Assembly: GCA_021734785.1 (NCBI GenBank)
Contig: JAIPIF010000001.1
Span: 186,001-250,000, forward strand
Source: Candidatus Altimarinota bacterium
GTDB taxonomy: Bacteria; Patescibacteriota; Gracilibacteria; UBA4473
Reading direction: 5' to 3'
DNA: 64,000 nt
The notes under the pieces were generated by a model, which saw only the letters and a program-made list of their open reading frames with translations, was not told where the DNA came from and did not search any database. Of this stretch, positions 11,056-47,010 are shown piece by piece (positions within the stretch are counted from its first letter, which is position 1; each line of letters starts with the position of its first letter). Position numbers and translations under genes: made by a program.

Positions 11056-12255
11056 GTGAGGATTGTGCCAAAAAGGAAAGCAGAAATCAATTTTCGACCC
11101 CTCAAACAGGAATTCTGGATGTGGGTCGGCGGGGGTGTGCTTCTTTTTTCTGTGGGAAAGATCCTGGATCAGTATATTTTTGATATTTTTCATTCTCTCC
11201 ACACGCCCGCCCTCGACGAGGCCGTCATTTTTCTGACCGAAACACTGGTGTGGTGGGTGCTGGTGGCATTTGCCATTGCTACGGCGTGGCGCCTCTGGAA
11301 AAATCCCGATCATCGTTCAAAACTCCTGCCTGCGTTTTTTGCTGTGGGAGCAGCGGCTATCCTTGCTCTCATTTTCAAAAGTATCTTCGAAGCGCCACGT
11401 CCTTACGAAATTACCTCGCTTGACCCGCTTGTTTCTGTCCGAACCCACAGTTTTCCCTCCTCTCACACGGCAGTGGTCTTCGCACTGATGATTCCCATGT
11501 TTCGTATTGCTCGTTGGCTCGGGGCAGGGTGGCTCTTTTTTGCCCTTTTGATTGGTCTGGCACGAATATACGAGCATGTGCATTTTCCCTCGGACATTGC
11601 TGGGGGAATTTTTGTTGGTGGCATTACCGGCGCTATTTTTTCCCATCCGACGACCGAGCAATATCTTCGAATTTTATGGCAGGAGCGGGAATTTCGACGA
11701 CAGAGTTTTCACTTTCTTGCCGGATTTCTCTCGGTTTTTGCACACTGGGCAGGATATCTGCGCTTGCGGGAGATTGCCGTTTTACTGCTGTTGGGACTGA
11801 TTGCGTCTTGGCTGGCAGCCAAAGGAAAATTTCCACTGGGAGCGCGGATGTGTCGCCTCTTTGACCGACCACGAGATTGTCAGTTTCCGGGGCGGGGCGC
11901 CTTTTATTTCCTTCTCGGAGTGGGGCTGTCCTTCTTTTTCTTTGACGTCAAAATTGCCTACGCTTCCATTTTGATTCTTTCCGTGGGGGACTCTTTCAAT
12001 CATCTCTTTGCCGGGCGAACACCACGACTGGTCAACTTTCCCTGGAATCGACGAAAAAACATGGTTGGGGTCTTGGTCGGCGTGGTGACAGGCACCTTTG
12101 CAGCACAATTTTTTGTGCCGGTGTGGGCGGCATTTCTCGCCTCTTCGATCGCGATCTTTCTCGAAACAATTCCGTTTCACTTTCGGCAGTTTTATGTCGA
12201 CGACAATCTCTTTGTTCCCCTTGTAGCAGGGGCCGTTATGTTTGTGCTGACGTGA
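11056..12255 (+). CDS. PAP2 phosphatase fused to a CTP-dependent polyprenol/lipid kinase
   Basis: One 399-residue membrane protein joins two domains. Residues 1-190 are a PAP2 (type 2 phosphatidic acid phosphatase) with all three motifs: K108-x6-RP (KSIFEAPRP), PSSH at 134-137 and R170-x5-H176-x3-D180. Residues 205-399 are a multi-span domain of the dolichol/phytol/diacylglycerol kinase family (SEC59/DGK1-like), with a GDSFNHLFAGR segment and the conserved VDDNL near 381-385. PAP2 would remove and the kinase add phosphate on a lipid such as undecaprenol. A TACAAT box at 11043-11048 seven bases before GTG 11056 favours that start; GTG 11065 and ATG 11119 are alternatives. Confidence 0.8.
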   Translation: MRIVPKRKAEINFRPLKQEFWMWVGGGVLLFSVGKILDQYIFDIFHSLHTPALDEAVIFLTETLVWWVLVAFAIATAWRLWKNPDHRSKLLPAFFAVGAAAILALIFKSIFEAPRPYEITSLDPLVSVRTHSFPSSHTAVVFALMIPMFRIARWLGAGWLFFALLIGLARIYEHVHFPSDIAGGIFVGGITGAIFSHPTTEQYLRILWQEREFRRQSFHFLAGFLSVFAHWAGYLRLREIAVLLLLGLIASWLAAKGKFPLGARMCRLFDRPRDCQFPGRGAFYFLLGVGLSFFFFDVKIAYASILILSVGDSFNHLFAGRTPRLVNFPWNRRKNMVGVLVGVVTGTFAAQFFVPVWAAFLASSIAIFLETIPFHFRQFYVDDNLFVPLVAGAVMFVLT

Positions 12256-12554
12256 GGAAACAGTGAAAAATTACAAATGACAAATGAGAAATGAGGGAGG
12301 GGTTAAAAAACTCAAAAGTTCAAAAGCTTAAAAGTTGAAAAGCGTAAAAGCTACAAAAGTGAATGACACCCTGCGACTCGGTTTGTCGGGATCTCGTTTG
12401 GAGAAAGTTGTGAAGTTATGAAGCAAGGAAGAAGGGAAAAATCAATTCTCAATTACAAATTACAAATGAGAAATAAGAGAAAAGAAAAAACGGAGACGCT
12501 TCACAACGAAAAAAGGTGGCAAAAAGAAAGCAGCTCAGTGGTCTTTTAAAATCC
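12256..12554. repeat. A-rich dispersed repeats in a gene-free 300-base gap
   Basis: No gene is visible. The gap holds two copies of a TTACAAATGACAAATGAG-like motif (12269-12296 and 12456-12476) and a run at 12312-12358 in which AAAAG recurs every 9-10 bases. Related motifs occur at 30391 and 34390. It separates the convergent PAP2-kinase gene and rpsH. Confidence 0.6.
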
Positions 12555-12932
12555 CTAGCTCACCTCACACAGCACTTCCCCACCGACATTCTGTTTGCGC
12601 GCCTCGTAGCCGGTCATCAGCCCTTTTGACGTGGAGACAATCGAAATGCCGTAGCCACTGAGGACTTTTCGGATTTTTTCTGCCGAGGTGTAGATCCGCT
12701 GGCCGCATTTTGACACGCGCTTGAGCGTCAGTTTTTTCTCTGGCAGTTCGAGGATGAGTACTTTGAATTTCCCCGATTCATCGACATGGACCGATTTCAA
12801 AAACTCATTTTTGAGCATGACTTTTGCCATCTCGTGTTTGAGTTTGGAGTAGGGGATTTCTGTGCGTTCACTTCGCGCAGTTTGCGCGTTGCGGATGCGA
12901 GTCAAGAAGTCAGCGATAGGATCAACACTCAT
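12555..12932 (-). CDS. rpsH: 30S ribosomal protein S8
   Basis: The 125-residue protein begins MSVDPIADFLTRIRNA, the classical S8 start, and ends with the conserved SGYGISIVSTSKGLMT and GGEVLCEVS segments. S8 binds 16S rRNA helix 21 and organises the central domain of the small subunit. It is the last gene of this ribosomal cluster; rplF, rplR, rpsE, rplO and secY, which usually follow, are not here. Confidence 0.97.
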   Translation of the reverse strand: MSVDPIADFLTRIRNAQTARSERTEIPYSKLKHEMAKVMLKNEFLKSVHVDESGKFKVLILELPEKKLTLKRVSKCGQRIYTSAEKIRKVLSGYGISIVSTSKGLMTGYEARKQNVGGEVLCEVS

Positions 12933-12935
12933 GGT

Positions 12936-13160
12936 TTACCAAGAAGATTTACGGACGCCCGGAATCTGGGCTTTTTCTGCGAGTTCACGAAAACAACATC
13001 GACAAATTCCAAAATCACGCATGTAACCACGGGGGCGTCCACAGAGGTTGCAGCGGTTGTACGCACGGGTAGCCAGATCGATCTTGCGTCCGTCTTTTTT
13101 GGCACGGAGATACCGATCCATGAATTTTTGAGATTTGTGAACGATTGCTTTTCGGGCCAT
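12936..13160 (-). CDS. rpsN: 30S ribosomal protein S14, zinc type
   Basis: A 74-residue S14 with the four-cysteine zinc site CNLC...CRCC near residues 37-56 and the conserved C-terminus [15 protein letters not shown]. It lies in the head of the 30S subunit. The zinc (C+) form is about 61 residues in most bacteria; the extra N-terminal residues [13 protein letters not shown] extend it slightly. It ends three bases before rpsH. Confidence 0.96.
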
Positions 13161-13169
13161 AAAGGAAAA

Positions 13170-13757
13170 TTAAGATTCTTTGTGTGCTTCTGGTTTCACC
13201 GGTTTTTTAAACGGAAACCCAAGGGATTCCAGAAGTTTGCGAGAATGCTCGATGTCGCTGGTCGAAGTAATGATCGATACCTGCATTCCATGAATTTTTC
13301 GAGAGTCTTCGGGTTTTTTCCCTTCGGGAAATGCCGTGTGATCTTTGAATCCCACAGAGCAGTTTCCGTCCTTGTCAAAACAGTTTCGTGCGACCCCTCG
13401 AAAGTCTCGCACACGGGGATAGGCGACATTGATGAGTTTGTGCAAAAAGTTGTAGGCCTCTTGATTGCGAAGCGTCACCGACAGGCCGATAGGCTGTCCT
13501 TCTCGCACCTTGAAGTTGGACACAGACATTTTTGATTTTCGCAAAACGGGTTTTTGCCCGGTAATGTTTGTGAGATTTTCCTCCACAAAAGAAAAATCTT
13601 TCGAATTTAGCTTTTGGAGATACGAACCCATCCCGACATTTACACAGATTTTTTGGATCTGTGGGATCTGCATAGGATTCTTGATTCCCAGCTCTTTTTG
13701 GAGTTTGGGACGAATATCCTTTCGGTAGCGTTCGTAGAGTTCAGAAGTGCGTTTCAT
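13170..13757 (-). CDS. rplE: 50S ribosomal protein L5
   Basis: The 195-residue protein contains the L5 hallmarks ICVNVGMGSYL, the TGQKPVLRKSKMSVSNFKVREG block and LINVAYPRVRDFRG. L5 binds 5S rRNA in the central protuberance. The length is slightly more than usual (about 180), from a charged C-terminal tail ending KPEAHKES. It overlaps the end of rplX by four bases, consistent with translational coupling. Confidence 0.97.
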   Translation of the reverse strand: MKRTSELYERYRKDIRPKLQKELGIKNPMQIPQIQKICVNVGMGSYLQKLNSKDFSFVEENLTNITGQKPVLRKSKMSVSNFKVREGQPIGLSVTLRNQEAYNFLHKLINVAYPRVRDFRGVARNCFDKDGNCSVGFKDHTAFPEGKKPEDSRKIHGMQVSIITSTSDIEHSRKLLESLGFPFKKPVKPEAHKES

Positions 13758-14113
13758 TTTTTGTCAGCATCAGGTTTTTTGGCGGCTTTTTTCGCCGTTT
13801 TTTTCCCAGAGACAATGGGTTCACCGGATTTTTTGGTGATCCGTGTCTTGGTAGTTCCCTCGAGTTTATAGCCCACCCGAGAGGGCTTGTTGGTCTTGGC
13901 ATCCACTACGGCGACATTGGAGGCATGGATCGGTGCATAAAATTCAACACGTTCTCCGGGGTTTCCATCGCGGCCTTTGACGTGCTTGATGCGTTTATTG
14001 GCTCCCTCGATGATGACCTGATTGGTTTTATGCAGGACGCGCGTAATGGTTCCCGACTTCCCTCGGTCTTTTCCGGTCAGTACTACCACGGGATCGTTTA
14101 CTTTGAGTTTCAT
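13754..14113 (-). CDS. rplX: 50S ribosomal protein L24
   Basis: Starting at ATG 14113, the 119-residue protein has the KOW motif (VVVLTGKDRGKSGTITRV) at the N-terminus, then the canonical VIIEGANKRIKHVK stretch. L24 starts 50S assembly. The last 20 residues form a lysine/alanine-rich tail (KKTAKKAAKKPDADKK) like the tails seen on S10 and L22 in this window. A TTG two codons upstream is a less likely start. Confidence 0.96.
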   Translation of the reverse strand: MKLKVNDPVVVLTGKDRGKSGTITRVLHKTNQVIIEGANKRIKHVKGRDGNPGERVEFYAPIHASNVAVVDAKTNKPSRVGYKLEGTTKTRITKKSGEPIVSGKKTAKKAAKKPDADKK

Positions 14114-14115
14114 GA

Positions 14116-14484
14116 TCAAAGGACTTCAGGGGCCAGGGAAATGATTTTTTGAAAGCCCTTGGCGCGGAGTTCGCGAGCAATGGGGCCAAAGACACGCGTG
14201 CCCTTGGGGAGTTTTTCATCATTTACGATCACGACAGCGTTTTCATCAAATCGGAGGACCGATCCATCTGGACGTCGGATGGGAGATTTTTGTCGGACGA
14301 TAACTGCCTTTTGGATGGATCGTTTTTTGACGACTCCCTTGGGCGCGGCTTCCTTGACACTGACGGTGATCACATCGCCTACCTGCGCATACCGCTGTTT
14401 GGATCCGCCCAGCACCTTGATGCAGCAGACCTTTTTTGCGCCGGTATTATCAGCGACGTTGAGCCAGGACATATTCTGAATCAT
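14116..14484 (-). CDS. rplN: 50S ribosomal protein L14
   Basis: The 122-residue protein starts [19 protein letters not shown], the standard L14 beginning, and has the conserved [17 protein letters not shown] and [13 protein letters not shown] segments. It contacts 23S rRNA and the bridge to the small subunit. ATG 14484 overlaps the stop of rpsQ by four bases; a longer in-frame extension reads through rpsQ and is rejected. Confidence 0.97.
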
Positions 14485-14726
14485 GTGGAGGAAGCGGAAG
14501 TTACGGTTTCGGTAAGTTTCCAGTGTTTTTTCCTTGAGATTGGTCGGCACTGTTGGATGACGACCTTGTCTCCTACTTTTGCAACCCCTTTTTCATCATG
14601 AGCCAAGAAATAGGCATTGGTAGGGTACATTTTTTTGTACTTGGGATGCGGCTGGTATTCGATCACTTCGACCTTGATCGTCTTGTCTCCAGAAATTTTG
14701 GCGACGGTTCCTTTTTTGGTGATCAT
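14481..14726 (-). CDS. rpsQ: 30S ribosomal protein S17
   Basis: This 81-residue S17 has [18 protein letters not shown] at the start and [19 protein letters not shown] in the middle, both typical. It binds the lower part of 16S rRNA. Its start overlaps the rpmC stop by four bases and its stop overlaps the rplN start, so the three are probably coupled. Confidence 0.96.
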
Positions 14727-14935
14727 TTTTGAGCAGTTTTAGCGGCGATAAACTGCTCGTCACGGAGCAGGGTTTTTATCTGAGCTACGAGCAAACGGAG
14801 TTTCTTGATCTGCGCGGTATTTTGATTTTGCCCGGTTCGCACGTGAAATCGAACGCGTGCCAATTCGCGCTCTGTCTTCTTCAGTTTTTCCTGAAGTTGG
14901 ACAAGCGTCATCTGGCGGAGTTCTTGGATTTTCAT
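14723..14935 (-). CDS. rpmC: 50S ribosomal protein L29
   Basis: A 70-residue, all-helical protein starting [18 protein letters not shown], the L29 pattern. It lies near the exit tunnel of the large subunit. Its start codon overlaps the stop of rplP by one base (TAATG arrangement). Confidence 0.95.
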   Translation of the reverse strand: MKIQELRQMTLVQLQEKLKKTERELARVRFHVRTGQNQNTAQIKKLRLLVAQIKTLLRDEQFIAAKTAQK

Positions 14936-15351
14936 TACAGATCAGGCGTTATAACTTTACAACGAACGGGAAGCTTGTAGGTAGCGAGCTTGAGCGCTCG
15001 GCGCATGGCTTCGGTTTCAGCGCCTCCCATTTCAAACAGAATTTTGCCCGGTTTGACCTGGACAACCCATTTGTCAGGAGCGCCTTTTCCTGATCCCATG
15101 GGAACTTCCGCTCCTTTGGCTGTCAGGATTTTGTCGGGGAAGACCCGAATCCAGACCTTTCCCCCGCGTTTGACCGCACGAGTGATCACTCGACGGGCGG
15201 CTTCGATCTGACGTGCAGAGATTTCTCCTGCATCCAGCGACTTGATCGCAATGCGTCCAAATGCGATTTCTCCACCGCGCGTCGCTACTCCCTTGGATTG
15301 GGAGCGCAGACGAAATTCTTTTCGGTGTTTGACGCGTTTCGGTTGAAGCAT
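14935..15351 (-). CDS. rplP: 50S ribosomal protein L16
   Basis: The 138-residue protein shows the L16 features [14 protein letters not shown], the [27 protein letters not shown]-type core and KLPVRCKVI at the end. L16 helps position tRNA in the A site. In almost all bacteria rplP follows rpsC directly; here 3.4 kb of other genes intervene, and rplP has its own strong promoter 21 bases upstream. Confidence 0.97.
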
Positions 15352-15372
15352 TCTGTACGAAAAAGCCGTCGG

Positions 15373-15400
15373 ATTCTAAGCAGAAAAAAAAAAGTGTCAA
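15373..15400 (-). promoter_or_regulatory. Promoter of the rplP-rpsH ribosomal half-operon
   Basis: On the minus strand TTGACA (15400-15395), a 16-nt spacer and TAGAAT (15378-15373) form a near-consensus sigma-70 promoter, 21 bases before the rplP ATG. It follows directly after the terminator of the inserted block. Confidence 0.8.
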
Positions 15401-15436
15401 GGTTTTTTTGGGGATTCCAAAAGGGAAAAAAGAAAG

Positions 15437-15466
15437 TCCCCGACTGATTTTTGTGCCAGTCGGGGA
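15437..15466 (-). terminator. Terminator closing the inserted block
   Basis: TCCCCGACTG and CAGTCGGGGA are perfect 10-bp arms with a 10-nt loop. On the minus strand a T-rich tract follows, so transcription of the gene ending at 15483 should stop before rplP. Confidence 0.85.
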
Positions 15467-15482
15467 TGTGGATCGTTGTTTT

Positions 15483-15848
15483 TTACGCCGTGCACAGTTT
15501 GCGCAGCGCTTCTGCTTTTTTTGGGTCCCAGATTTGCGTTTGGATTCGTCTGCCGTTTTTCTTGCCAACGAGAAAGACTTTGAAACTCCCGAGCCGTCTT
15601 CCCCACAGGTTTCTGTCGATGTTTAATCCCACAAAAAAGCAGGATTGTTTCTTCGATTTTCCCAAAACTTTTTGCATTTTGGGCGTGATGGGAATAACTC
15701 TTTGAAATTCATAATTTAGTTTTTCCCGAAGTGGCACTCTGGCTTCGTGATGTTTTGCCACTGCACTGAATCGGTTTTCTGTGATCATTGGTTCATTTTT
15801 CATAATTTCTGAACTTAAATTTATACTTGTGTTAGCTGTTTCCGCCAT
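15483..15848 (-). CDS. Hypothetical basic protein in the ribosomal cluster
   Basis: I do not recognise this protein. From ATG 15848 it has 121 residues, basic and without signal peptide or membrane span; the C-terminal 90 residues (from FSAVAKHHEARV through NIDRNLWGRRLG to the WDPKKAEALRKL end) look well folded, mixing strands and a final helix. The start is uncertain: ATG 15803 is another option. A promoter (TTGACA-17-TAAAAG) lies about 95 bases upstream and a strong terminator follows, so it is a one-gene unit between the SLH gene and rplP. Function unknown. Confidence 0.55.
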   Translation of the reverse strand: MAETANTSINLSSEIMKNEPMITENRFSAVAKHHEARVPLREKLNYEFQRVIPITPKMQKVLGKSKKQSCFFVGLNIDRNLWGRRLGSFKVFLVGKKNGRRIQTQIWDPKKAEALRKLCTA

Positions 15849-15944
15849 TTCGCAAACAGCAAAAACAGCCAACACGAGAGCTCCAAAACAACGATGCCGA
15901 GAAGAACGTCATCTCTTTTCTCGTGGAAAAGAAACGAACGAGCA

Positions 15945-15973
15945 CTTTTAGGAAAGATTTTTGCTTTTGTCAA
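15945..15973 (-). promoter_or_regulatory. Promoter of the basic hypothetical gene
   Basis: On the minus strand TTGACA (15973-15968), 17-nt spacer, TAAAAG (15950-15945), just after the SLH gene stop codon. Confidence 0.6.
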
Positions 15974-15975
15974 CC

Positions 15976-17139
15976 TTATCGGATCCGCACATCAGTGCCT
16001 CCAAAGGGGAAAAATCCTTGGGGGCGGGCATTGGTGGTAATCCAGTCAGGAAAAAAGAGCACCATCCGCGAACTCCCGCCAGAGACAGCTTGCTCGGAGA
16101 TTCGTGCCAGGAGTTCGATCTGGGCACGATTGTTTCGCATCAGCGTGAGCGTGGTGGGGATCACGATGGTGTCGCTGTCGGGGATGATTTCCTCCGAAAT
16201 CTTTTGTCCCCCAGCCTCCAGCCAGAGCGCGTCAAAATCTTCAAACACACCCGAGGGCCCCAGGCGCTGAAACTGCATTTCTTCGATCTCCACCGTGCCC
16301 CCCTCTGTGGTGAAATGGAGCGGCATCAGCACCACCTCTGCCGTCCCGGGATCGACCGTGGTCTGGCGTCGTTTTTTTTCACTGGGTTGAGTGACCTTGA
16401 GGACGCTGTCGTCTTTTGGCACGACCCGACTCCCACTCGAAAACTGCGAGAGAGGATCGGTTGCCGGTGTGGTCGGGGGGGTGGTTTCTTCTTGCTCTGG
16501 AGCGGGGAGGTCTTCCGCTTCTTCGCCGGATTCATCATCTTCCGCTGTCTGCAGGGCGGTCATGACTTTCCAGAGGGCGACCGCGACTTCGTTGCGGGTG
16601 AGGAGCGCTGCCGGCAGCAGTTTTTCACTTTCCCGATCGGGGAAAAGATCATAGGTTTTCACCACCCCGACAAAGGGTTCGTACCAAGAGTCCTCGGCCA
16701 CATCGTCAAAGTCGTGCGGGAGGTTTTCCTCCAGATCAAAGGTGCGGACGAGCATCTTGAGAAACTCAGCAGTGTTGACGGTTTTTCCGGGTCGAAAGGT
16801 GCCGTCATCGTACCCGTCCAGAATGTTTTCTTCTGCGGCACGAGCAACAAATTTTTCATACCATGCGTCCGTGGTCACATCCGAAAACCGTCCGTTATTT
16901 TTTTTCTCATCGGAGACATCGAGCTTCTTTCCCAACAGCAGCATCTTCGCCAGTTCGGCCCGATTGACCGGAGCCGCGCCATCAAACCGCCCATCCGGGC
17001 GTCCGTGCATGACGTTCTGGGCTTTGAGAAACCCCGCGGCTCGTCCCTGGCGAGACGCTTCTGCCACATCCGGAAAATCCCGTGCGCTCAGCGGCGTAGT
17101 GATCAGCAAACACACGAAGGCAAGCAGGATTTTTTTCAT
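15976..17139 (-). CDS. Secreted SLH-domain protein
   Basis: The 387-residue protein has a signal peptide (MKKILLAFVCLLITTPLSA), then about three S-layer homology repeats over residues 20-195, recognisable by FPDVAE, FSDVTTDAWYEKFV, GYDDGTFRPGKTVNTAEFLKM and FDDVAEDSWYEPFV. A Glu/Pro/Thr-rich linker (about 195-245) leads to a C-terminal beta-rich domain of about 130 residues. SLH domains hold proteins on the cell wall, often through pyruvylated polysaccharide. It is the last gene of the sigma-factor operon and overlaps the preceding gene by four bases, so it is likely part of the response that sigma factor controls. Confidence 0.85.
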   Translation of the reverse strand: MKKILLAFVCLLITTPLSARDFPDVAEASRQGRAAGFLKAQNVMHGRPDGRFDGAAPVNRAELAKMLLLGKKLDVSDEKKNNGRFSDVTTDAWYEKFVARAAEENILDGYDDGTFRPGKTVNTAEFLKMLVRTFDLEENLPHDFDDVAEDSWYEPFVGVVKTYDLFPDRESEKLLPAALLTRNEVAVALWKVMTALQTAEDDESGEEAEDLPAPEQEETTPPTTPATDPLSQFSSGSRVVPKDDSVLKVTQPSEKKRRQTTVDPGTAEVVLMPLHFTTEGGTVEIEEMQFQRLGPSGVFEDFDALWLEAGGQKISEEIIPDSDTIVIPTTLTLMRNNRAQIELLARISEQAVSGGSSRMVLFFPDWITTNARPQGFFPFGGTDVRIR

Positions 17140-17570
17140 TTGTCGGTGAGAGGAAGACGGGTTGATTGTAGTTTTTTTTGGGCGGCTTTCAAAAAGCTTT
17201 TATCCATCCCCCTGAGTTCTCGGGACTTTTCAAAACTTTCGATCTGCTGCTGGAGACGCATTTTCCGTTCCTGGAGTATTTTTCCCAAAAGGGCTCGGTT
17301 TTCTGCTTTCGTTTTTTGTTCAAATTCTCGCAAAAAGTCGGGATCGGGGTTTTCTTGCTGTGCCTGAAGCATTTCGATATCTCGTTCCAGCTTTTGCACT
17401 ACTTGTTCTTGTTGTTCTGGAGAAATGTCTTCCATGCCCTCCACCGTCTGCTGGAGAGTTTCAAACTGCTGGATTTTGAGCTCCACGGCTTCTGTCAGCG
17501 ATACATTTGCCGCCGAAGCGACCCCGCTCCACAAGAGACACCCGAGACCGATCAAGAGGAGTTTTTTCAT
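17136..17570 (-). CDS. Exported coiled-coil protein
   Basis: A 144-residue product with a clear signal peptide (MKKLLLIGLGCLLWSGVASA) and a mature part that is almost wholly helical and charged, rich in Glu, Gln and Lys with heptad-like spacing. It resembles small periplasmic coiled-coil proteins such as the Spy/CpxP/ZraP type in general character, but I see no diagnostic LTxxQ motif. It is the third gene in the ECF sigma operon, overlapping both neighbours by four bases. A role as an envelope sensor or chaperone paired with the anti-sigma factor is inference. Confidence 0.65.
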   Translation of the reverse strand: MKKLLLIGLGCLLWSGVASAANVSLTEAVELKIQQFETLQQTVEGMEDISPEQQEQVVQKLERDIEMLQAQQENPDPDFLREFEQKTKAENRALLGKILQERKMRLQQQIESFEKSRELRGMDKSFLKAAQKKLQSTRLPLTDK

Positions 17571-18067
17571 GGTTGGGAGCCCATATTTTTTTCCGACAAG
17601 AGCGCAAAAAGATCCGTTTCCTGGATTTCTTCGATCTGTTCGAGATCGCTAGAAAACGCCTCAATATCTTGCTGGAGTTTTTGTTCAATGGTCCGAGCGA
17701 TTTCCTGCTGGACCGGATCAGGAGCAGGGACAAGGGAAAACGTTCCCACGACGGCCACAAACAAGAGCGGCAGCACCGTCTGCAGGGACTTTTGCCAGGA
17801 AAAATTTCTCCAGAGAATGAGCGCTCCCCATCCACCCCACGCTCGTTTCCGTGGTGCAAAACACTGTTTGATCGCCTGCTTCAGTGCTTTCTTGCTCGGC
17901 ACTTCTTTTCGAGTCTGCGCCGTCAGGAAATCTTGCACGGCGAAAAATTCCCGGATTTCCTCAGCATGCTCAGGAAATTCATCCAAAATCACCTCCAGCT
18001 CGTCGCCGTCTTCGGCACGTTGGAGCACTTGGTTGAGAATTTTGAGGAGCGGATCAGCGGGAGTCAT
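17567..18067 (-). CDS. Putative membrane anti-sigma factor
   Basis: The 166-residue protein has a helical N-terminal cytoplasmic part (about residues 1-90, with EDGDELEVILDEFPEH), one transmembrane span near residues 95-115 (VLPLLFVAVVGTFSLV) and a 50-residue acidic outer tail. That topology, and its place right after and overlapping an ECF sigma gene, is the usual arrangement of anti-sigma factors. The HxxxCxxC zinc motif of ZAS anti-sigmas is absent, so the binding mode would differ. The function is inferred from context. Confidence 0.65.
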   Translation of the reverse strand: MTPADPLLKILNQVLQRAEDGDELEVILDEFPEHAEEIREFFAVQDFLTAQTRKEVPSKKALKQAIKQCFAPRKRAWGGWGALILWRNFSWQKSLQTVLPLLFVAVVGTFSLVPAPDPVQQEIARTIEQKLQQDIEAFSSDLEQIEEIQETDLFALLSEKNMGSQP

Positions 18068-18627
18068 TTTTGAGAGAGGGAGAGATGAGATTGCAGTTTT
18101 CGCAGGGCACGGACTTGGATTTGCCGCACGTTGGCTTCAGATTTTTTTGTTTTTTTCGCAATGTCTGCGTTGGAGTACCCCTTGAGAAATTTCAGTTCAA
18201 TGATCTCACGATGGGCCGGTTTGAGTTTTTTGAGCAGGGCACTGAGGGCCGTATTTTTTTCTTTTTCCTGTATCTGCTCGTGCGGGTTTTTTCGTTCGTC
18301 TGGAATTTGTTCAAACAGAGAAAGGGATTCTTCTTTTCGCAGAGTGATGTCGCGTTTTTTTTGTTGATAGTTGATGATCAGGTTTCGGGCAATGGTAAAG
18401 AAATATGCCAGCGGCGACTTGCCGCGATCCTGGTATCGTTCTTTTGCCTCAAACGCTCGGACAAATACCGTCTGTGCCAGATCTTCGGCTTCCGATTTGT
18501 CGTTGAGTTTCGACAGCACGTACCGGTACACGGGCGTAAAAAACTGCTGGTACAAAAGAGCAAACGCGTCAGTATCTCCGTGTTTGGCGGAGAGCATCAG
18601 TTCCGAAACGTTGGTTTCTTCGCTCAT
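18064..18627 (-). CDS. ECF-type RNA polymerase sigma factor
   Basis: This 187-residue protein has region 2 (AFALLYQQFFTPVYRYVLSKL and the EAEDLAQTVFVRAFE core) and region 4 with a helix-turn-helix (LKPAHREIIELKFLKGYSNADIAKKTKKSEANVRQ). It lacks regions 1 and 3, as ECF factors do. It should direct RNA polymerase to a small regulon, probably including its own operon. ATG 18627 has a GGAG site upstream; a longer start is less likely. The candidate anti-sigma gene overlaps it by four bases. It lies between rpsC and rplP, an unusual location. Confidence 0.9.
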   Translation of the reverse strand: MSEETNVSELMLSAKHGDTDAFALLYQQFFTPVYRYVLSKLNDKSEAEDLAQTVFVRAFEAKERYQDRGKSPLAYFFTIARNLIINYQQKKRDITLRKEESLSLFEQIPDERKNPHEQIQEKEKNTALSALLKKLKPAHREIIELKFLKGYSNADIAKKTKKSEANVRQIQVRALRKLQSHLSLSQK

Positions 18628-18684
18628 TGTGGGGTCTCCGCCGGGAGAAAATTTTGGGGCACATCTGACACTCCCGATAACCAA

Positions 18685-18710
18685 AAGACGCCTATTTTGT
18701 GACAGGTTTC
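18685..18710 (-). promoter_or_regulatory. Candidate ECF-type promoter for the sigma operon
   Basis: On the minus strand GAAACC (18710-18705) and CGTCTT (18690-18685) resemble the GAAC/CGTC elements recognised by ECF sigma factors (for example B. subtilis SigW/SigM types), with 15 nt between GAAAC and CGTC. It lies about 58 bases before the sigma start codon, suggesting autoregulation. Confidence 0.5.
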
Positions 18711-18774
18711 GTCCAAAAATTCAAGTGGACCATTCAACGGCTTGCTCAAAATTTTTTCCACGTTTGTGTTTTTC

Positions 18775-19422
18775 TCAGTTCAGCTCCTGATTTTTAAACA
18801 CCATCCCGTGGTAGACCCAGACCTTGATACCGATGGCACCGTAGGTGGTGTCAGCCTTGATCATGGCATAGTCGATGTTTGCTCGCAGGGTGTGGAGGGG
18901 GACCGTCCCAAATCCATAGGATTCTTTCCGCGCGATGTCGACTCCATTGAGTCGCCCGGAGACCTGAATTTTTACTCCCTTGGCTCCAGAATCTTTGGCG
19001 CGGTCAACGGCCATTTTGCAGACGCGTCGGTAGGGAAATCGTCGTTGAATCTGATCCGCAATCGACTTGGCCATCAGCGTGGCGTCGGCATCGGGTTTTC
19101 GAACCTCCTGGACTTTGACTTCCAGCTCTTTGGTTTCAAATTTCTCACGGAGTTCTTTGCTCAGCTTTTCAATGTTTTCTCCGCTCCGACCGATGATCAC
19201 GCCGGGCTTCGCCGTGTGGAGTGTCACGATCGTTTTTCCGCTCCTCCGTTGAATTTCAACTTTTGCCACGCCCGCAGAAGCGTAGCGTTTTTCCAGAAGT
19301 TTTCGGATCTGCACGTCCTGAAGTAATTTATCCTTAAAAGTCCTCAGAGAGGAAAACCAGTTTGAATCCCACGTACGTGTGATGCCGATGCGAAGCGAAT
19401 GCGGTGAAACTTTTTTACCCAT
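18775..19422 (-). CDS. rpsC: 30S ribosomal protein S3
   Basis: The 215-residue protein begins MGKKVSPHSLRIGITRTWDS and has the KH-domain GVIIGRSGENIEKL and the C-terminal YGAIGIKVWVYHG, all typical of S3. It lines the mRNA entry channel of the 30S subunit. Four bases separate it from rplV. It is the last gene of the promoter-proximal half of the cluster; no terminator is obvious after it, so some read-through into the sigma operon is possible. Confidence 0.97.
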   Translation of the reverse strand: MGKKVSPHSLRIGITRTWDSNWFSSLRTFKDKLLQDVQIRKLLEKRYASAGVAKVEIQRRSGKTIVTLHTAKPGVIIGRSGENIEKLSKELREKFETKELEVKVQEVRKPDADATLMAKSIADQIQRRFPYRRVCKMAVDRAKDSGAKGVKIQVSGRLNGVDIARKESYGFGTVPLHTLRANIDYAMIKADTTYGAIGIKVWVYHGMVFKNQELN

Positions 19423-19426
19423 ACCG

Positions 19427-19936
19427 TTATTTTTTGGAAGAAGAAGATTTTGAAGAAGGGCTCTTTTTTGGCGTTGATTTTTTTACGCCGGTTTTGGTCG
19501 TTGATTTCTGAGGTGCAGATTTTGTCTCGGTTTTTTCTGCTGGTTTCTTGGTGGTTTTTTTGGCAGTGTCTGTCTCGGTGGTATTTTTTTTAGCGGTTTT
19601 GACAGGGGGATTTCTCTTTTCCAAGAAAACGGAGATGTGGCAGGTAGGCTTCATCAGTGGAAGCGCTCGACCGCGTGTCGAGGGCAAAAATCGCCGCCAA
19701 AATTCTCCTCGATTGACGACAATCTGCGAAACAGCGAGTTCGACCCGTTTTGCATTCTCGTTTTGTTCGGCATTTGCTACGGCGGATTGAATCACCTTGT
19801 ACAGATGTTTCGCTGCTTTTTGGGGCATAAAGCGAAGCTTCTCCATCGCCTCGTTTACGGGCTTTCCACGTACGAGTCCGGCCACAATGTTGACCTTTTT
19901 TTGTGCAATTCGGACTTTTCGGAGATGCGCTTTCAT
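19427..19936 (-). CDS. rplV: 50S ribosomal protein L22 with lysine-rich tail
   Basis: The L22 domain occupies residues 1-115, starting MKAHLRKVRIAQKKVN, with the exit-tunnel loop region NRGEFWRRFLPSTRGRALPLMKPTCHI. A further 54 residues form a repetitive tail of Lys, Thr, Ser and Pro, not part of the normal L22 fold (usual length about 110). Such tails are likely disordered and rRNA-binding. ATG 19936 matches the family start. Confidence 0.96.
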   Translation of the reverse strand: MKAHLRKVRIAQKKVNIVAGLVRGKPVNEAMEKLRFMPQKAAKHLYKVIQSAVANAEQNENAKRVELAVSQIVVNRGEFWRRFLPSTRGRALPLMKPTCHISVFLEKRNPPVKTAKKNTTETDTAKKTTKKPAEKTETKSAPQKSTTKTGVKKSTPKKSPSSKSSSSKK

Positions 19937-19956
19937 GAGAAGAGGAATCAAAAAAA

Positions 19957-20223
19957 TTAGCGTTCACGGCCACCGTGAGAACGGAACTTCCGTGTCGGAG
20001 AAAATTCTCCTAGACGATGTCCGACCATAGCTTCAGTGCAAAACACGGAAATAAATTCCTTGCCGTTGTGCACGCCAAAGGTGTGTCCGACCATTTCTGG
20101 AGCAATTACACAGTCGCGGCTCCAGGTTTTGATCACCTGTTTTTTGCCAGACTCATTGGCTTTTTTGACCTTTTTGATGAGTCGGGGATCGACGTAGGGA
20201 CCTTTTTTGGCAGATCGGGTCAT
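19957..20223 (-). CDS. rpsS: 30S ribosomal protein S19
   Basis: The 88-residue protein has the S19 signature [15 protein letters not shown], the [28 protein letters not shown] core and the C-terminal [16 protein letters not shown]. It lies in the head of the 30S subunit. Order and direction match the S10 operon. Confidence 0.97.
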
Positions 20224-20251
20224 GGAGAGGACAAATTACAAAGTACAAATA

Positions 20252-21094
20252 TTATTTTTTCTTTGCGCGATGGCGCGAACGGACAATGTGTTTGTCCGAC
20301 TGCTTGTTGCGGCGAGTCTTGACTCCCAGAGCGTGAGCGCCCCAAGGGGTTTTTGGATATTTCATTCCGATAGGGCTCCCGCCTTCACCCCCTCCGTGGG
20401 GATGGTCGCAGGGATTCATGGCTTTTCCGCGTACCTGTGGACGTCGTCCTTTTTTTCGGGTGCGTCCGGCTTTTCCCATTTGCAAAAGAGCGCGTTCTTC
20501 GTTGGACAATATGCCCACCGTCGCAAAACAGGATTTTTCCACTCGTCGGATTTCTCCGCTGGGGAGTTGGACTTGTGCCTTGGCTCCCTCCAGGGAAACG
20601 AGCTTTGCTTTTTGTCCGGCGGAGCGAACAAATTTTCCGCCCTGGTTCTTTTGGACTTCCAGATTGTAAATCTCAAATCCAACCGGAATATTTTCCAGGG
20701 GCAGTCGAGTGCCGGGACGGGCTTTTGCCTTTTGAGAACAGAGAACCTCATCGCCGACCTTGGCGCCTTTCCACGCCAAAATATATCGTTTGTCTCCGTC
20801 AGGGTAATTGACCAGTGCAATGTTTGCTGTGCGATTTGGATCGTATTCGAGCGCTGCAATTTTTCCCGGGATATCCAGTTTGTCTGTTCGGTTGAAATCC
20901 ACTGTTCGATACTGCCGACGAGTGCCACCACCACGGTGGCGAATCGAAATGGTCCCCCCACTGCGTCCGGCGGTTTTTTTGCCGACACTCAGCAGGCGAC
21001 GAACCGAGGGTTTTTTGGCACTCAGCTGTTCATTGTCGAGTGTGTTCATCCCTCGTTGTGCATTGGAAACGGCCTTGATCGTTCGAATACCCAT
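20252..21094 (-). CDS. rplB: 50S ribosomal protein L2
   Basis: This 280-residue L2 carries the RNA-binding core (RHRGGGTRRQYRTVDF) and the catalytic-site loop with AMNPCDHPHGGGEGG and its conserved His near the peptidyl-transferase centre. The length matches the family. It starts one base inside the stop of rplW. Confidence 0.97.
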   Translation of the reverse strand: MGIRTIKAVSNAQRGMNTLDNEQLSAKKPSVRRLLSVGKKTAGRSGGTISIRHRGGGTRRQYRTVDFNRTDKLDIPGKIAALEYDPNRTANIALVNYPDGDKRYILAWKGAKVGDEVLCSQKAKARPGTRLPLENIPVGFEIYNLEVQKNQGGKFVRSAGQKAKLVSLEGAKAQVQLPSGEIRRVEKSCFATVGILSNEERALLQMGKAGRTRKKGRRPQVRGKAMNPCDHPHGGGEGGSPIGMKYPKTPWGAHALGVKTRRNKQSDKHIVRSRHRAKKK

Positions 21095-21387
21095 TATTTA
21101 AACGCGTTAAAATCCAGTTTCTTCTTGCCTCCCAGCGTCACCACGGCTTTTTTGAGATCGCGTCGTCTTTTGAGAATGCGTCCGCGACCAATGAGTCGTG
21201 TTTTTTCGGGAAGCGTTGAAATATTTACGTTTTCAGCCGTGATGCCATAAAACTCTTTCAGCGCTTTTTTGACCAAGGGCTTGGTTGCCTCTGGGTGTAC
21301 GAGAAAACTATATTTTCCCTTCGCCTCAGCGGCGACAGATTTTTCCGTTTGGATGGGTTTCACGAGAACGTCTTTGAGCGCAATCAT
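21094..21387 (-). CDS. rplW: 50S ribosomal protein L23
   Basis: A 97-residue L23 starting MIALKDVLVKPIQTEKSV, with YSFLVHPEATKPLVKKALKEFYG and the basic GRGRILKRRRDLKKAVVTL region. L23 forms the docking site for trigger factor and SRP at the exit tunnel. The start overlaps the end of rplD by four bases. Confidence 0.95.
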   Translation of the reverse strand: MIALKDVLVKPIQTEKSVAAEAKGKYSFLVHPEATKPLVKKALKEFYGITAENVNISTLPEKTRLIGRGRILKRRRDLKKAVVTLGGKKKLDFNAFK

Positions 21388-22022
21388 TGGGAAGGAGCAG
21401 GACAAAAGGTTTCTTCAGTGGCCGAAAGCGCTTCGCGGAGGAAGCAAATTTTTTCAGCATGTAGGACGTCGTAGGGATTGAGATATTTTGCCACGATGGT
21501 ATTTACGCCCGGGATGTTGGCAACGGATTTCTGAAACACTTCATTTTTTTCCGGCAACACAAATAAATACTTTTTCGCCGGAGGAAAGTGTTTCAGCATT
21601 TCCAGGGCGGCTTTTGTTTTGGGCTCTTTTTTTTCAAATGCCTCCAGGATCAATACATTTTTTTCTTTTGCCTGGACACTGAGACTCGAAAAAAGCGCTG
21701 CGCGGCGTTCCTTCTTTGGCATAGATTTGTGAAAGTTTCGGGTATTTCTTGGCCCGTGTGCGACACCGCCTCCGCGGATCAGATTGGTCGAGAGGGCTCC
21801 TCGTCGAGCACGCCCGGTTCCTTTTTGGCGAAAGGCTTTTGATTTGGTCAGAGTGACTTCTGCTCGTGTCTGTGTGTGCGCGACAGGCGTTCGTTTGTTT
21901 GCCAGTCGCAGCAGAATTGCCCGATGCATGAGATCGGGATTGATTTTAGCTTCAAAAAGAGAGGCCGGAAGCGTCATGTCTCCCGTTTTTTGGCCGCTGG
22001 AATTGTACAGATCAGCTTTCAT
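21384..22022 (-). CDS. rplD: 50S ribosomal protein L4
   Basis: The 212-residue protein has the L4 features: the MKADLYNSSGQKTG start, the long tunnel loop with KAFRQKGTGRARRGALS and the C-terminal Rossmann-like domain ending with ALSATEETFCPAPSQ. ATG 22022 overlaps the rplC stop by four bases; a longer reading frame upstream only shadows rplC. In some bacteria L4 also regulates the S10 operon, but no leader structure for that was recognised here. Confidence 0.96.
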   Translation of the reverse strand: MKADLYNSSGQKTGDMTLPASLFEAKINPDLMHRAILLRLANKRTPVAHTQTRAEVTLTKSKAFRQKGTGRARRGALSTNLIRGGGVAHGPRNTRNFHKSMPKKERRAALFSSLSVQAKEKNVLILEAFEKKEPKTKAALEMLKHFPPAKKYLFVLPEKNEVFQKSVANIPGVNTIVAKYLNPYDVLHAEKICFLREALSATEETFCPAPSQ

Positions 22023-22606
22023 TTGGATTCTCGGACAAAAACAAAAGAATTTACGGCTCCTGGCACCCCACCGCGAACGGCGAGAATGTTTTGTGCAGGA
22101 TCTAGTTCTACGATTCCCGTGCGGAGGGTCACCGTACGAAACCCCGAATGTCCGGGCATTTTTTTCCCTTTGAGAATTCGGCCAGGTTTGGCACACATGC
22201 CCACGGATCCGGGCTCACGATGGTGATGTGACCCGTGTGTCTCTCTTCCGCGTCCAAAGTTCCAGCGTTTGATTACCCCAGTAAATCCGTGCCCTTTGGA
22301 TGTGCCGGTGATTTTGATAGTGTGAACCTCCTTGAGGCTCTCAAGAGAGACAGAATCTCCTTTTTTGGCTGTGCCGGCTTCCACCAGCAGCTCTCGAATA
22401 AATTTATATTTTTTATTCTCATTTTTCCCGAAATTTTTTCGTTCAAAGCTTCCCAGGACGGCGGCATCATAGCCGTCGTTTTCCAGGGTTTTGACCTGAA
22501 GTATTTTCATGTCGGGGACTTCGAGGAGCGTGACGGGGGTGACCTTTCCGCTTTGCGGATCGATCACACGAGTCATGCCAATTTTTCGGGCGAGCACGCC
22601 ATTCAT
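22019..22606 (-). CDS. rplC: 50S ribosomal protein L3
   Basis: This 195-residue L3 starts MNGVLARKIGMTRV and has the conserved KGHGFTGVIKRWNFGRG and GSVGMCAKPGRILKGKKMPGH segments near the peptidyl-transferase centre. The length is slightly shorter than in E. coli. It overlaps rpsJ by four bases. Confidence 0.97.
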   Translation of the reverse strand: MNGVLARKIGMTRVIDPQSGKVTPVTLLEVPDMKILQVKTLENDGYDAAVLGSFERKNFGKNENKKYKFIRELLVEAGTAKKGDSVSLESLKEVHTIKITGTSKGHGFTGVIKRWNFGRGRETHGSHHHREPGSVGMCAKPGRILKGKKMPGHSGFRTVTLRTGIVELDPAQNILAVRGGVPGAVNSFVFVRESK

Positions 22607-23010
22607 GAGGAAAGCATTTTAATTTCAACATTCACTCCTGCAGGGAGTGAGAGATTTTGCAGACTTTCAATCGTCTTTGGGGTCGGCTCTTTGATGTCGA
22701 TGAGCCGTTTGTGGATACGGATCCCGTATTGATCGCGCGCATCCTTATTGACAAAGAAAGATCGATTGACGGTATACTTTTTGATTTTTGTGGGCAATGG
22801 CACCGGACCGGACACCATGGAGCCACTGCGTTCGGCGGTCTCAAAAATCGACCTGGCGGCCTCGTCGATCATCGTGTAGTCAAAGGATTTCACAATGATG
22901 CGGACTTTGGCTGGAGCGACCGATTTTTCTGCTGCTTTTTTTGCAGATTTTTTCGGAGCGGCTTTTGCCGTTTTGGTGGTTTTGGAAGGCGTCTTTTTTG
23001 TGGTTGCCAT
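22603..23010 (-). CDS. rpsJ: 30S ribosomal protein S10 with lysine-rich N-terminus
   Basis: Residues about 35-135 are a normal S10 (KVRIIVKSFDYTMIDEAA, SGPVPLPTKIKKYTV and HKRLIDIKEPTPKTIESL). The first 35 residues are an added Lys/Ala/Thr-rich extension absent from most S10 proteins. S10 functions in the 30S head and, with NusB, in antitermination. It is the first gene of the cluster, with a strong promoter 27 bases upstream. Confidence 0.96.
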   Translation of the reverse strand: MATTKKTPSKTTKTAKAAPKKSAKKAAEKSVAPAKVRIIVKSFDYTMIDEAARSIFETAERSGSMVSGPVPLPTKIKKYTVNRSFFVNKDARDQYGIRIHKRLIDIKEPTPKTIESLQNLSLPAGVNVEIKMLSS

Positions 23011-23037
23011 CAGCTTTTTTTCAAAAAGAGCTCGCGG

Positions 23038-23065
23038 ATTGTAGATAAAAAAGGGAGGTTGTCAA
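23038..23065 (-). promoter_or_regulatory. Promoter of the rpsJ-rpsC ribosomal half-operon
   Basis: On the minus strand TTGACA (23065-23060), 16-nt spacer, TACAAT (23043-23038). The architecture is the same as the rplP promoter, including the 16-nt spacer. Confidence 0.8.
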
Positions 23066-23192
23066 ATCTTTTTTTGAGCTCCGTGATCCCAGAAGAGAAA
23101 GCTTCAAAAGGCTCATTTTTGGAGAGAAAATTCTCGAAAAAATGTCCAAAAAACTCGCGTAACTTCGGGTAACAAAAAAATAAAAAAAATAT

Positions 23193-23221
23193 TTGACAAT
23201 TTTTGGCCTGCTCAGTATTGT
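23193..23221 (+). promoter_or_regulatory. Promoter of the sigma-4/winged-helix gene
   Basis: TTGACA (23193-23198), 17-nt spacer, TATTGT (23216-23221), 36 bases before the start codon. Confidence 0.65.
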
Positions 23222-23257
23222 GTTTCTGAAAATCTTTGCTTTTATTTTTCAAATAAC

Positions 23258-24340
23258 ATGACAGCATCCGATACATCGGCGCAGGCACAAGTTGACTTTG
23301 ATGCTTTGATGAAGCGTCTTTTGGGATTGCTTACCAAAAAAGAACAGGACGTGATTGAGCGTCGATTTGCGATTGGAAAAGACAAACGCGAAACCCTCGA
23401 TAAGATCGGGAAAAGCTATTCGATCACGCGCGAACGGGTTCGTCAGATCGAGGCAGTCGCGATCCAAAAGCTCGCTCGAATCTCTCAGGACAAATCCATT
23501 CGGGTGGTTCATGACTTGGCTATTTCTGTGCTCAACGAGCACGGAAAAGTTATGTCTGAGGCGTTGCTTGTGTCAGAGATGATCAAGCACATTGGCAAAA
23601 ATAAAAATGTCGGTGTCAATGCCGTCAAGTTTACGCTCTGGGTTTCAGACCGACTCGAAAAACACGAAAAAAATCAGTTTTATCGTCCTTTTTGGTATAC
23701 GGCAGACGTCAAACTTTCCGAAATTAAAGCGGGAATCCGTGACATCAAAAAAGTGCTGGAAAAAAAGCACGACGTGATGTCTTTTTCGGAAATTGCTCAG
23801 ACCCTGGGTACCAAATATCCTGAAGCCATGCTAGAGTCTTTGCTCTATATTAGTTGGGATTTCCTCAAAACCGAAAAGGGATGGGGGCTCAAATCTTGGC
23901 GGTTTATCAATCCTCGCTCGATCAAAGATTGCATCACGATCATTCTCAAGAAACACGGCAAACCCCTGCACTTCAGTGAAATTATGGAACGCATTTTGCG
24001 TGACTTTCCCAATCGAAAACGGGTCACTCCGCAAGCGAGCCACAATGAGCTGATCCGCCACGACGAATTTGTGCTGGTGGGACGGGGGCTGTACGGACTC
24101 AAAGAATGGGGCTACGCAGCTGGAACTGTTTGTGATCTGATTCGGAGTGTCCTCCTCGAAAACAAAGGACCGATGAAGCGTCAGCAGATCATCAAAAAAG
24201 TACTCGAAAAACGAGATGTTCGTTTGGGGACCATTTCCCTGAGTCTGCAGAAATATCCGTTTTTTAAGCGCGTCGGTCGTGCGGTGTATGAGTATGATGG
24301 ATCGCTCGACAAAAATCGTCGCCGAAAATACAGCGGTTAA
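23258..24340 (+). CDS. Sigma-70 region 4 protein with tandem winged-helix (HARE-HTH-like) domains
   Basis: The 360-residue protein opens with a sigma-70 region 4 (residues about 15-75): LTKKEQDVIERRFAI and a helix-turn-helix with YSITRERVRQIEAVAIQKL, as in primary sigma factors. No region 2 or 3 is present. The rest looks like four winged-helix units beginning near residues 83, 160, 230 and 290; each has the pattern of helix, FSEI-like helix and a final strand with W, G or Y. These resemble the HARE-HTH domain of RNA polymerase delta subunit. It probably binds polymerase or DNA as a global regulator; the exact role is unknown. Confidence 0.75.
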   Translation: MTASDTSAQAQVDFDALMKRLLGLLTKKEQDVIERRFAIGKDKRETLDKIGKSYSITRERVRQIEAVAIQKLARISQDKSIRVVHDLAISVLNEHGKVMSEALLVSEMIKHIGKNKNVGVNAVKFTLWVSDRLEKHEKNQFYRPFWYTADVKLSEIKAGIRDIKKVLEKKHDVMSFSEIAQTLGTKYPEAMLESLLYISWDFLKTEKGWGLKSWRFINPRSIKDCITIILKKHGKPLHFSEIMERILRDFPNRKRVTPQASHNELIRHDEFVLVGRGLYGLKEWGYAAGTVCDLIRSVLLENKGPMKRQQIIKKVLEKRDVRLGTISLSLQKYPFFKRVGRAVYEYDGSLDKNRRRKYSG

Positions 24341-40770: not shown

Positions 40771-41997
40771 ATGAAATTTTCCATTTCCTCTGTCCGCATC
40801 GTCGACTCGGATCGGGATATTTTTGGCACCGTTTCGGTCGAAAATGGAAAGATTGCCTCCGTGCAGGAGGAGCCTGTTTCCACCCCCCCCAAAAAACTCC
40901 TCCTCCCGGGGATGGTGGATCCGCACGTGCATTTTCGCGATCCGGGTGCGGCCGGGTTTCAAACAGCAGAAGACTTTGCCTCCGGCTCAGCCGCGGCAGC
41001 GGCGGGGGGCGTGACGACGGTTTTTGACATGCCCAACACGCAGCCGCCTGTGTTTTCCGCAGAAAACTTGGCACAAAAAAGAACCATCGTTTCTGCCAAA
41101 TCCCTCGTGCGGTGGGGACTCTTTTTTGGGGCGGGGGAGCACAATTTGCCCGAAATTTCCGCGGTCAAAAATGTCCCCGGGATCAAGCTGTACGCCAACG
41201 ACACGACCGGGCATTTGCGGGTCTCTCAAGAAAAAACCTGGCGAGATATTTTTTCCCTCGGGCGACGAGTGGTGGTCCATGCCGAAGGAGAAACCTTTGT
41301 CCATCTGGCACGCGTGTGGGCGGAAATAGGGTTTCCCTGCCCGCTGCATCTGGCACACACGGCTCGGGCGATCGAGGTTTCTGCTCTGCGAGATTTGAAA
41401 AAAAAGACCGACCGGATTTCTGCCGAAGTGGCTCCTCATCACCTCTTTTTTACGGCAGAGGATGTGACCGACGGTTTCCTCCGGATGAAGCCCGAACTCG
41501 GCTTGAAATCGGATCAAGAGGCGCTGTGGCAGGGAATTGCTGACGGCACAATCGACTGCGCGGGATCGGATCACGCGCCGCATCCGGTTTCCGCCAAAAA
41601 AACAAACACACCGGCGTTTGGGGTGCCGGGGGTGCAGCACATTTTTCCACTTTTGTTCTCTGCGTGGCTGGAGCGGGGATGGGATCTCCAAAATCTTGTT
41701 CGTTTTACCTCCCAGCGGGCGGCCGAAATATTTCATCTTTCGCCACGGGGACAGATTGCACCGGGGGTTCCGGCGGATCTGGCCCTTTTTGATCTGACTG
41801 CTCCGCAAAAAGTTTCTGATCAAACGCTTTTTTCCCGCTGCGGGTGGACGCCGTACGGAGATTTCTCACTGCCCTGCGTGTCTCAGACCTGGGTGGGAGG
41901 GATTGAAGTTTTTTGCGACAGAAAAATTACGGCGGGAGACTGGCGCGCCGATGAAGAACGCTTTCTTCCTGGTCTCAGCCAAAAAAGTTTGGATTGA
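40771..41997 (+). CDS. pyrC: Dihydroorotase, type I
   Basis: This 408-residue amidohydrolase has the zinc motif HVHFRDPG at the start of the barrel, FDMPNTQPP, then the later His ligands (ALDLAHTARAI-like HLAHTARAIEV) and the metal-binding Asp in GSDHAPHP. It closes carbamoyl aspartate to dihydroorotate, the step after PyrB. The type I form matches the motif DPHVHFRDPG and length over 400. Other pyr genes are absent from the window. It converges with the pilin-like gene, overlapping it by 23 bases at the 3' end. Confidence 0.94.
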   Translation: MKFSISSVRIVDSDRDIFGTVSVENGKIASVQEEPVSTPPKKLLLPGMVDPHVHFRDPGAAGFQTAEDFASGSAAAAAGGVTTVFDMPNTQPPVFSAENLAQKRTIVSAKSLVRWGLFFGAGEHNLPEISAVKNVPGIKLYANDTTGHLRVSQEKTWRDIFSLGRRVVVHAEGETFVHLARVWAEIGFPCPLHLAHTARAIEVSALRDLKKKTDRISAEVAPHHLFFTAEDVTDGFLRMKPELGLKSDQEALWQGIADGTIDCAGSDHAPHPVSAKKTNTPAFGVPGVQHIFPLLFSAWLERGWDLQNLVRFTSQRAAEIFHLSPRGQIAPGVPADLALFDLTAPQKVSDQTLFSRCGWTPYGDFSLPCVSQTWVGGIEVFCDRKITAGDWRADEERFLPGLSQKSLD

Positions 41998-42466
41998 TCG
42001 TCCGCAGGATCATCGCCGCAGAAAAGAGCAGGATCAAGCTAAAGAGAGCCTGGGTGATGCGGGTTTTGGCTTGTGAAACGGCATCGGGGCTGGCGCCGCC
42101 GGCAATGATCTGGATCCCGGAGACCACGATGATCAGGACACAGACCAGCCCAATCGCGATCGCACCAAATTTGTAGATCAGACTCACATACGCGGCGAAA
42201 ACATCGACGCCCGAGTTGCCGGCGACACTGCGGATCTGTCGTCCGTCCCCGATGGGGATGGGCTCTTCAAATTCGACACAGTATTTCACCTTTTTCCCAT
42301 CTTTAAGTGTAAATCCATACCCGTCATCTTCCCCATCTTCCCCTTGCCCGAGGATGCAGCCACCGGTGGAGATATGTCCTCCCTCTGCGGTAGCTTGTGC
42401 TGAGACACTCGCCCAGGAGGGCAAGAGCAGGAGTGCGAGCAGCAGGATGAGAAAGAGTTTTTTCAT
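41975..42466 (-). CDS. TrbC/VirB2-like exported two-span membrane protein
   Basis: The 163-residue product has a signal peptide (MKKLFLILLLALLLLPSWASVSA), a 65-residue outer part with two cysteines, and two C-terminal spans, the second beginning KTRITQALFSLILLFSAAMILRTI. The GIQIIAGGASPDAVSQAKTRI turn between spans is the typical feature of the VirB2/TrbC-like pilin family widespread in CPR bacteria. It may be a pilus subunit or an envelope pore component. It lies one base after the 42468 gene and likely forms a unit with it. No VirB4-like ATPase is in the window. Confidence 0.7.
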   Translation of the reverse strand: MKKLFLILLLALLLLPSWASVSAQATAEGGHISTGGCILGQGEDGEDDGYGFTLKDGKKVKYCVEFEEPIPIGDGRQIRSVAGNSGVDVFAAYVSLIYKFGAIAIGLVCVLIIVVSGIQIIAGGASPDAVSQAKTRITQALFSLILLFSAAMILRTINPNFFG

Positions 42467-42467
42467 G

Positions 42468-43913: not shown

Positions 43914-44005
43914 GGGACAATGATCGCAAAAGTGTACCACAAAATCCCAGCCAATGCAAGCGGGGGAGCGTGTTTTCGCTTTTGACGAGACGGGGGTTCT
44001 CTCCC

Positions 44006-46988: not shown

Positions 46989-47010
46989 ACCATACAAAAG
47001 TAAAAAAATT

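Follow-up and report, generated by a model that had tools for sequence, protein, structure and literature searches.

Five genes between rpsC and rplP

Few bacterial gene orders are as stable as that of the S10 operon. How, then, did a sigma factor operon come to lie inside it in the genome studied here (G000), and does its position serve a function? The first-pass annotation had proposed that read-through from rpsC could tie envelope remodelling to growth rate. We analyzed a window of 64,000 nucleotides, the whole stretch presented above, which belongs to a 345-kb contig of a draft genome (1.06 Mb, 9 contigs, 77% complete). Open reading frame calls showed that 3423 bases separate rpsC and rplP, with five genes on the same strand inside. 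The features are listed by window position; promoters and terminators throughout are sequence predictions.

23038..23065, minus strand: promoter of S10 unit 1, TTGACA, 16-base spacer, TACAAT, then CCGCGAGCTCTTTTT; twin of the rplP promoter
22019..23009, minus strand: rpsJ and rplC, start of S10 unit 1, which runs from rpsJ to rpsC (open reading frames, blastp order table, sequence)
19422-18775, minus strand: rpsC, last gene of unit 1 (Pfam Ribosomal_S3_C, 6e-33; KH_2, 7.8e-19)
18628..18774, minus strand: gap of 147 bases between rpsC and the ECF gene
18698..18724, minus strand: TTGAA-N15-TGTCACA, a candidate promoter or operator for the ECF operon (7-mer comparison of six ECF operons)
18627-18064, minus strand: ECF sigma factor (Pfam Sigma70_r2, 8.7e-17; Sigma70_r4, 1.4e-11)
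18067-17567, minus strand: one-span protein, candidate single-span anti-sigma factor (position, a hydrophobic stretch read by eye, conservation with the ECF gene)
17570-17136, minus strand: exported all-helical protein, third gene of a conserved trio, candidate sensor (AlphaFold pLDDT 72)
17139-15976, minus strand: exported SLH protein, three SLH repeats and a C-terminal part
15945..15973, minus strand: candidate promoter of the small basic gene, TTGACA, 17-base spacer, TAAAAG (read directly from the sequence)
15803-15483, minus strand: small basic orphan protein, 106 amino acids (reading frame open from 15875; likeliest start 15803)
15437..15466, minus strand: intrinsic terminator after the small basic gene, 11 pairs, 7 of them G-C
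15373..15400, minus strand: rplP promoter, TTGACA, 16-base spacer, TAGAAT (11/12), then CCGACGGCTTTTT (promoter scan)
15351-14935, minus strand: rplP (Pfam)
12555..15351, minus strand: S10/spc unit 2, rplP rpmC rpsQ rplN rplX rplE rpsN rpsH (open reading frames, blastp order table)

Open reading frames and Pfam confirmed the five genes at the positions given in the first-pass annotation, together with their strand and the 4-base overlap at each of the three junctions that lead from the ECF gene (start most likely at 18627) through the one-span and helical genes to the SLH gene. The terminator (15466-15437) and the near-consensus promoter (15400-15373) that it had described before rplP are both present and were the top scan matches. 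This terminator goes with the extra orphan gene, outside the older block.

Products of the block

ECF sigma factors were defined by sigma-70 regions 2 and 4, no full region 3, and a length of about 190 amino acids. The first gene encodes such a protein (187 amino acids), with Sigma70_r2, Sigma70_r4, and TIGR02937 all above cut-off. Its closest model is the BldN family, to which its closest solved structure (6dxo) also belongs, but membership in the BldN family (TIGR02952) was rejected at 125 bits versus a curated cut-off of 206. BldN/RsbN-like systems resemble this one in having sigma regions 2 and 4 and a small one-span protein encoded next. They differ in that the sigma factor here falls below the BldN cut-off, its one-span neighbor is without an anti-sigma family match, and two further products are added, the exported helical protein and the SLH protein.

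The one-span protein matched nothing in Pfam or NCBIfam, and a profile search found no anti-sigma chain. Convincing matches were found in 6 of 353 genomes of the class, all with a related ECF gene that adjoins it in each; two borderline matches in family f14 (E value of 6e-4) were treated as noise. Its position and shape suggest that it is an anti-sigma factor. The exported helical protein matched no known family and had no PDB fold match at an E value of 0.001. Position and modeled shape make it a candidate sensor. A CnrX/Spy-type periplasmic sensor was considered for it and rejected, with no metal-resistor Pfam match, no fold match, and a model that is all-helical only.

The fourth product is an SLH protein by its PF00395 matches in three stretches (1.3e-20). 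Its C-terminal part was modeled as strands, with confidence too low for a structure search. Like the S-layer protein Sap, it has an apparent signal peptide followed by three SLH repeats, and its sequence matches the SLH region of Sap. In contrast to Sap and other SLH surface proteins it is small, with a C-terminal part that has no assignment, and it also differs from SLH surface proteins in its membership in an ECF operon, which we found only in the genus of G000 and G001. Anchoring of SLH repeats to a pyruvylated wall polymer would call for a CsaB-type pyruvyl transferase. Of 20 genomes of the host family, 17 have a gene of the pyruvyl-transferase family, with a PF04230 match in G000 and G001 (this Pfam family is broader than CsaB). 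The SLH protein may have a surface role. The small basic protein matched no Pfam family and had no homologues in the 60 relatives searched, PHROGs, or NCBIfam.

A conserved element upstream of the ECF operon

TGTCACA was the only 7-mer common to the upstream regions of all six related ECF operons. Five of the operons have it 74 to 80 bases ahead of the start codon, that of the sixth (G003) being uncertain, and in G000 it sits within the gap between rpsC and the ECF gene. In three g10 genomes and G003, the trio of ECF, one-span, and helical genes is without an SLH gene and lies away from ribosomal genes. TGTCACA accompanies it there as well. Since the trio carries its own TGTCACA and lives elsewhere in relatives, the ECF operon therefore appears to be self-contained, and the SLH gene and the small basic orphan are probably later additions to it.

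A scan of the genome for the element returned one perfect match, the ECF operon itself. Matches with a single mismatch were inside genes or before unrelated genes, and so we claim no wider regulon. The likeliest working of the operon is a conventional one, in which the membrane anti-sigma factor would hold the sigma factor until an envelope signal, perhaps via the helical protein, freed it. The freed sigma factor would then transcribe its own operon from the TGTCACA element, giving more SLH protein. The ribosomal neighbors would not be part of this sigma/anti-sigma circuit.

Two other observations concern ECF genes. A second ECF gene of G000 (L123 8998-11780) comes after ruvX and the gene for a solute-binding protein, and several family members seem to share this order. 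At 44940-47039, the window encodes a protein of 667-699 amino acids without a Pfam match, a homologue of which (47-49% identity) is divergent beside the ECF trio in G016 and G010.

The rpsC-rplP junction in relatives

The gap was measured for every neighboring pair from rpsJ to rpsE, using the blastp order table, in 20 genomes of the family, which belongs to the Gracilibacteria. rpsC and rplP were no longer neighbors in 18 of them; the two that keep direct adjacency are G009, with a gap of 324 nt, and G015, with 77 nt. Six genomes (G000, G011, G012, G013, G017, and G018) have an insert of 758 to 7236 nt between the two genes; they are 96 kb apart in G014 and on opposite strands in G010. In the remaining family genomes, other genes or a contig end adjoin each half that was found. 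Every other scored junction from rplC to rpsH is intact in the family wherever both of its genes were found. If the halves never re-fuse, a tree of 12 ribosomal proteins calls for approximately 8 separate breaks, a count that rests on draft genomes, some of which are split at contig ends. Among 40 class members sampled outside the family, rpsC and rplP are adjacent in about 33, and families f2, f15, and f17 are split. (Some families of the class read TGA as a residue.)

The genes at the gap or adjoining it differ among genomes: Tad-type pilus genes in G013, a T4SS pilin in G011 and G018, trypsin-like proteases in g10 and G008, an amidase/SpoIID protein in G002, and glutamine synthetase in G014. 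The window itself encodes two T4SS pilin-domain proteins at 41975-43916, one of them long with the pilin domain C-terminal. They belong to the same Pfam family as the pilins in the rpsC-rplP gap of G011 and G018.

The same-genus genome G001 carries the ECF, one-span, helical, and SLH genes and then rplP in the same order as G000, with 43-80% identity (70% for the ECF sigma gene). The small basic gene is missing, and a divergent gene encoding 1453 amino acids stands before the ECF gene. Its rpsC is on another contig, where a terminator and a convergent gene lie downstream of it.

Promoters and terminators at the junction

The score of the rplP promoter was reached by none of 100 shuffles of the 220 bases before rplP. 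All 18 family genomes whose upstream DNA could be read have such a promoter, at a distance that varies, including G009 and G015, in which the genes are adjacent, and G014, in which it is further upstream. The family consensus is TTGACA-N16-TANAAT with a conserved CNGNCGGCTTTT start region, as before rpsJ, where the pattern is found in most family members. Family f13, with rpsC and rplP still adjacent, has such an rplP promoter too; the nearest outside family, f5, has none. The earlier suggestion of a promoter that restarts ribosomal transcription finds support here.

Of 18 family genomes, 11 have an intrinsic terminator after rpsC, as do 3 of the 5 other genomes with a split, compared with none of 25 outside-family genomes that are intact or were counted so (including G055, with a 494-nt gap). 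Both signals were associated with the break (promoter, p of 2e-7; terminator, p of 1e-5, in statistics that ignore kinship). However, a terminator scan found none in the 147 bases after rpsC in G000, which is a counterpoint to reading the cluster as two units.

The sequence TAAAATCCGACGGCTTTT, near-identical to its rplP counterpart, precedes infA-rpsM-rpsK at G000:C6:173404. The promoters of rpsJ, rplP, and infA-rpsM-rpsK (G000:C6:173404-173439) have the same spacer and a GC-rich start region, CCGnCGGC/CCGCGAGC, followed by T-runs. This common region is a possible ribosomal-promoter signature and perhaps a discriminator for stringent control. An Rfam scan of 12000-24000 found no known RNA element above cut-offs.

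Discussion

We consider it quite probable that the S10 cluster of this family was split into two units at rpsC/rplP, leaving that junction open to cargo and breakage, and that the self-contained ECF/SLH block is one such cargo. As predicted from the signals, the near-consensus promoter would drive the genes from rplP to rpsH, and an intrinsic terminator would, in many members, close the unit from rpsJ to rpsC. With co-transcription no longer needed, selection on adjacency would have been lost at rpsC/rplP alone, and so different cargo could enter or the halves could part, lineage by lineage. Gene order shows that entry and separation do differ among lineages. In the genus of G000, the cargo would be the trio of ECF sigma factor, single-span anti-sigma factor, and exported helical protein, plus the SLH protein.

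The insertion first described is real, lineage-specific, and inside S10, but the function read into it, envelope building that tracks growth rate through an ECF/SLH operon fed by read-through from rpsC, did not find support. That coupling would give a reason for the place of the block, and it would fit the shared strand, the 147-base gap without a detectable terminator in G000, and the fact that, in both genomes of the genus, the block has stayed beside ribosomal genes, those on the rplP side. However, G001 keeps the block without rpsC before it, its rpsC ending instead in the terminator and convergent gene. Two other lineages have the trio away from ribosomal genes. The block has an upstream element of its own, the conserved TGTCACA, which travels with the trio. 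Elsewhere the junction hosts unrelated cargo, such as pilus genes, proteases, and glutamine synthetase. With rpsC and rplP adjacent in some relatives and the trio elsewhere in others, the coupling is weakened as well as not needed, and we think it improbable, though read-through may occur in G000 itself, where no terminator was found after rpsC. The first-pass annotation had itself named such relatives as a result that would weaken its functional reading. Still less credible, to the point of being very remote, is an error of assembly or binning. The genome is an incomplete draft and the join of rpsC to the ECF gene is seen in it only, but G001 reproduces the rplP side of the block, coherent ribosomal protein genes flank it inside a large contig, and its sigma gene is 70% identical to the same-genus copy. 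Nothing in these sequences suggests a chimeric join.

Repeated breakage also has to be weighed against a family ancestor that was already split, with re-fusion in G009 and G015; there would then be few breaks and no repeated weak point. With 18 of 20 genomes split, one early split and two re-fusions are cheaper by the number of events alone. However, re-fusion must restore order and strand twice, and rpsC and rplP are tightly adjacent in the nearest outside family. Furthermore, in G011, G012, G013, G017, and G018 the two halves still stand on either side of the insert in their old order, and G012 and G018 have kept the old upstream flank too. An ancestral split is thus unlikely in our judgment. 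Returning to two units with a freed junction, promoter-first seems the simplest order of events, because adjacent genomes bearing the promoter exist. We propose tentatively, at a little under an even chance, that gain of the promoter came first and alone made rpsC|rplP the break site, both in the host family and, independently, in one or more other lineages of Gracilibacteria, with the order promoter, terminator, cargo, and separation readable in living genomes.

In other phyla, this ribosomal protein cluster has dissolved stepwise, with small insertions first and separation later: a few unrelated genes enter at a boundary, and full separation is seen in later lineages (PMC8046335). The 3.4-kb insert in G000 and the wider separation in its sister G001 resemble this course; here too a small insertion lies at a transcription boundary, marked by predicted signals, and relatives are disconnected. 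The events highlighted in that work were mostly between classical operons, with one, nrdHEF, within rpoBC (PMC8046335). In contrast, the boundary described here is inside the classical S10 operon, with a predicted promoter and often a terminator, and it was broken repeatedly within one family. Among the papers searched, none dealt with a split of S10 between rpsC and rplP or with SLH proteins alongside sigma factors in Patescibacteria, and none described repeated break-up at a single new boundary within S10.

For stable gene orders, the course of break-up is usually pieced together from scattered cases. In this one family, a single junction presents intermediate states: adjacency with an internal promoter (G015), adjacency with both a promoter and a terminator (G009), small inserts, larger ones, and full separation. 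The locus also advises caution in deducing function from gene neighborhood, with an envelope operon beside ribosomal genes that would be cargo and that lives elsewhere in relatives. The sequence after the minus-10 element that is common to the rpsJ, rplP, and infA promoters may give a ribosomal-promoter signature in an uncultured group. A second break was seen between rpsH (window 12555) and rplF, which are parted in one clade (G000, G001, G009, G002, and G006).
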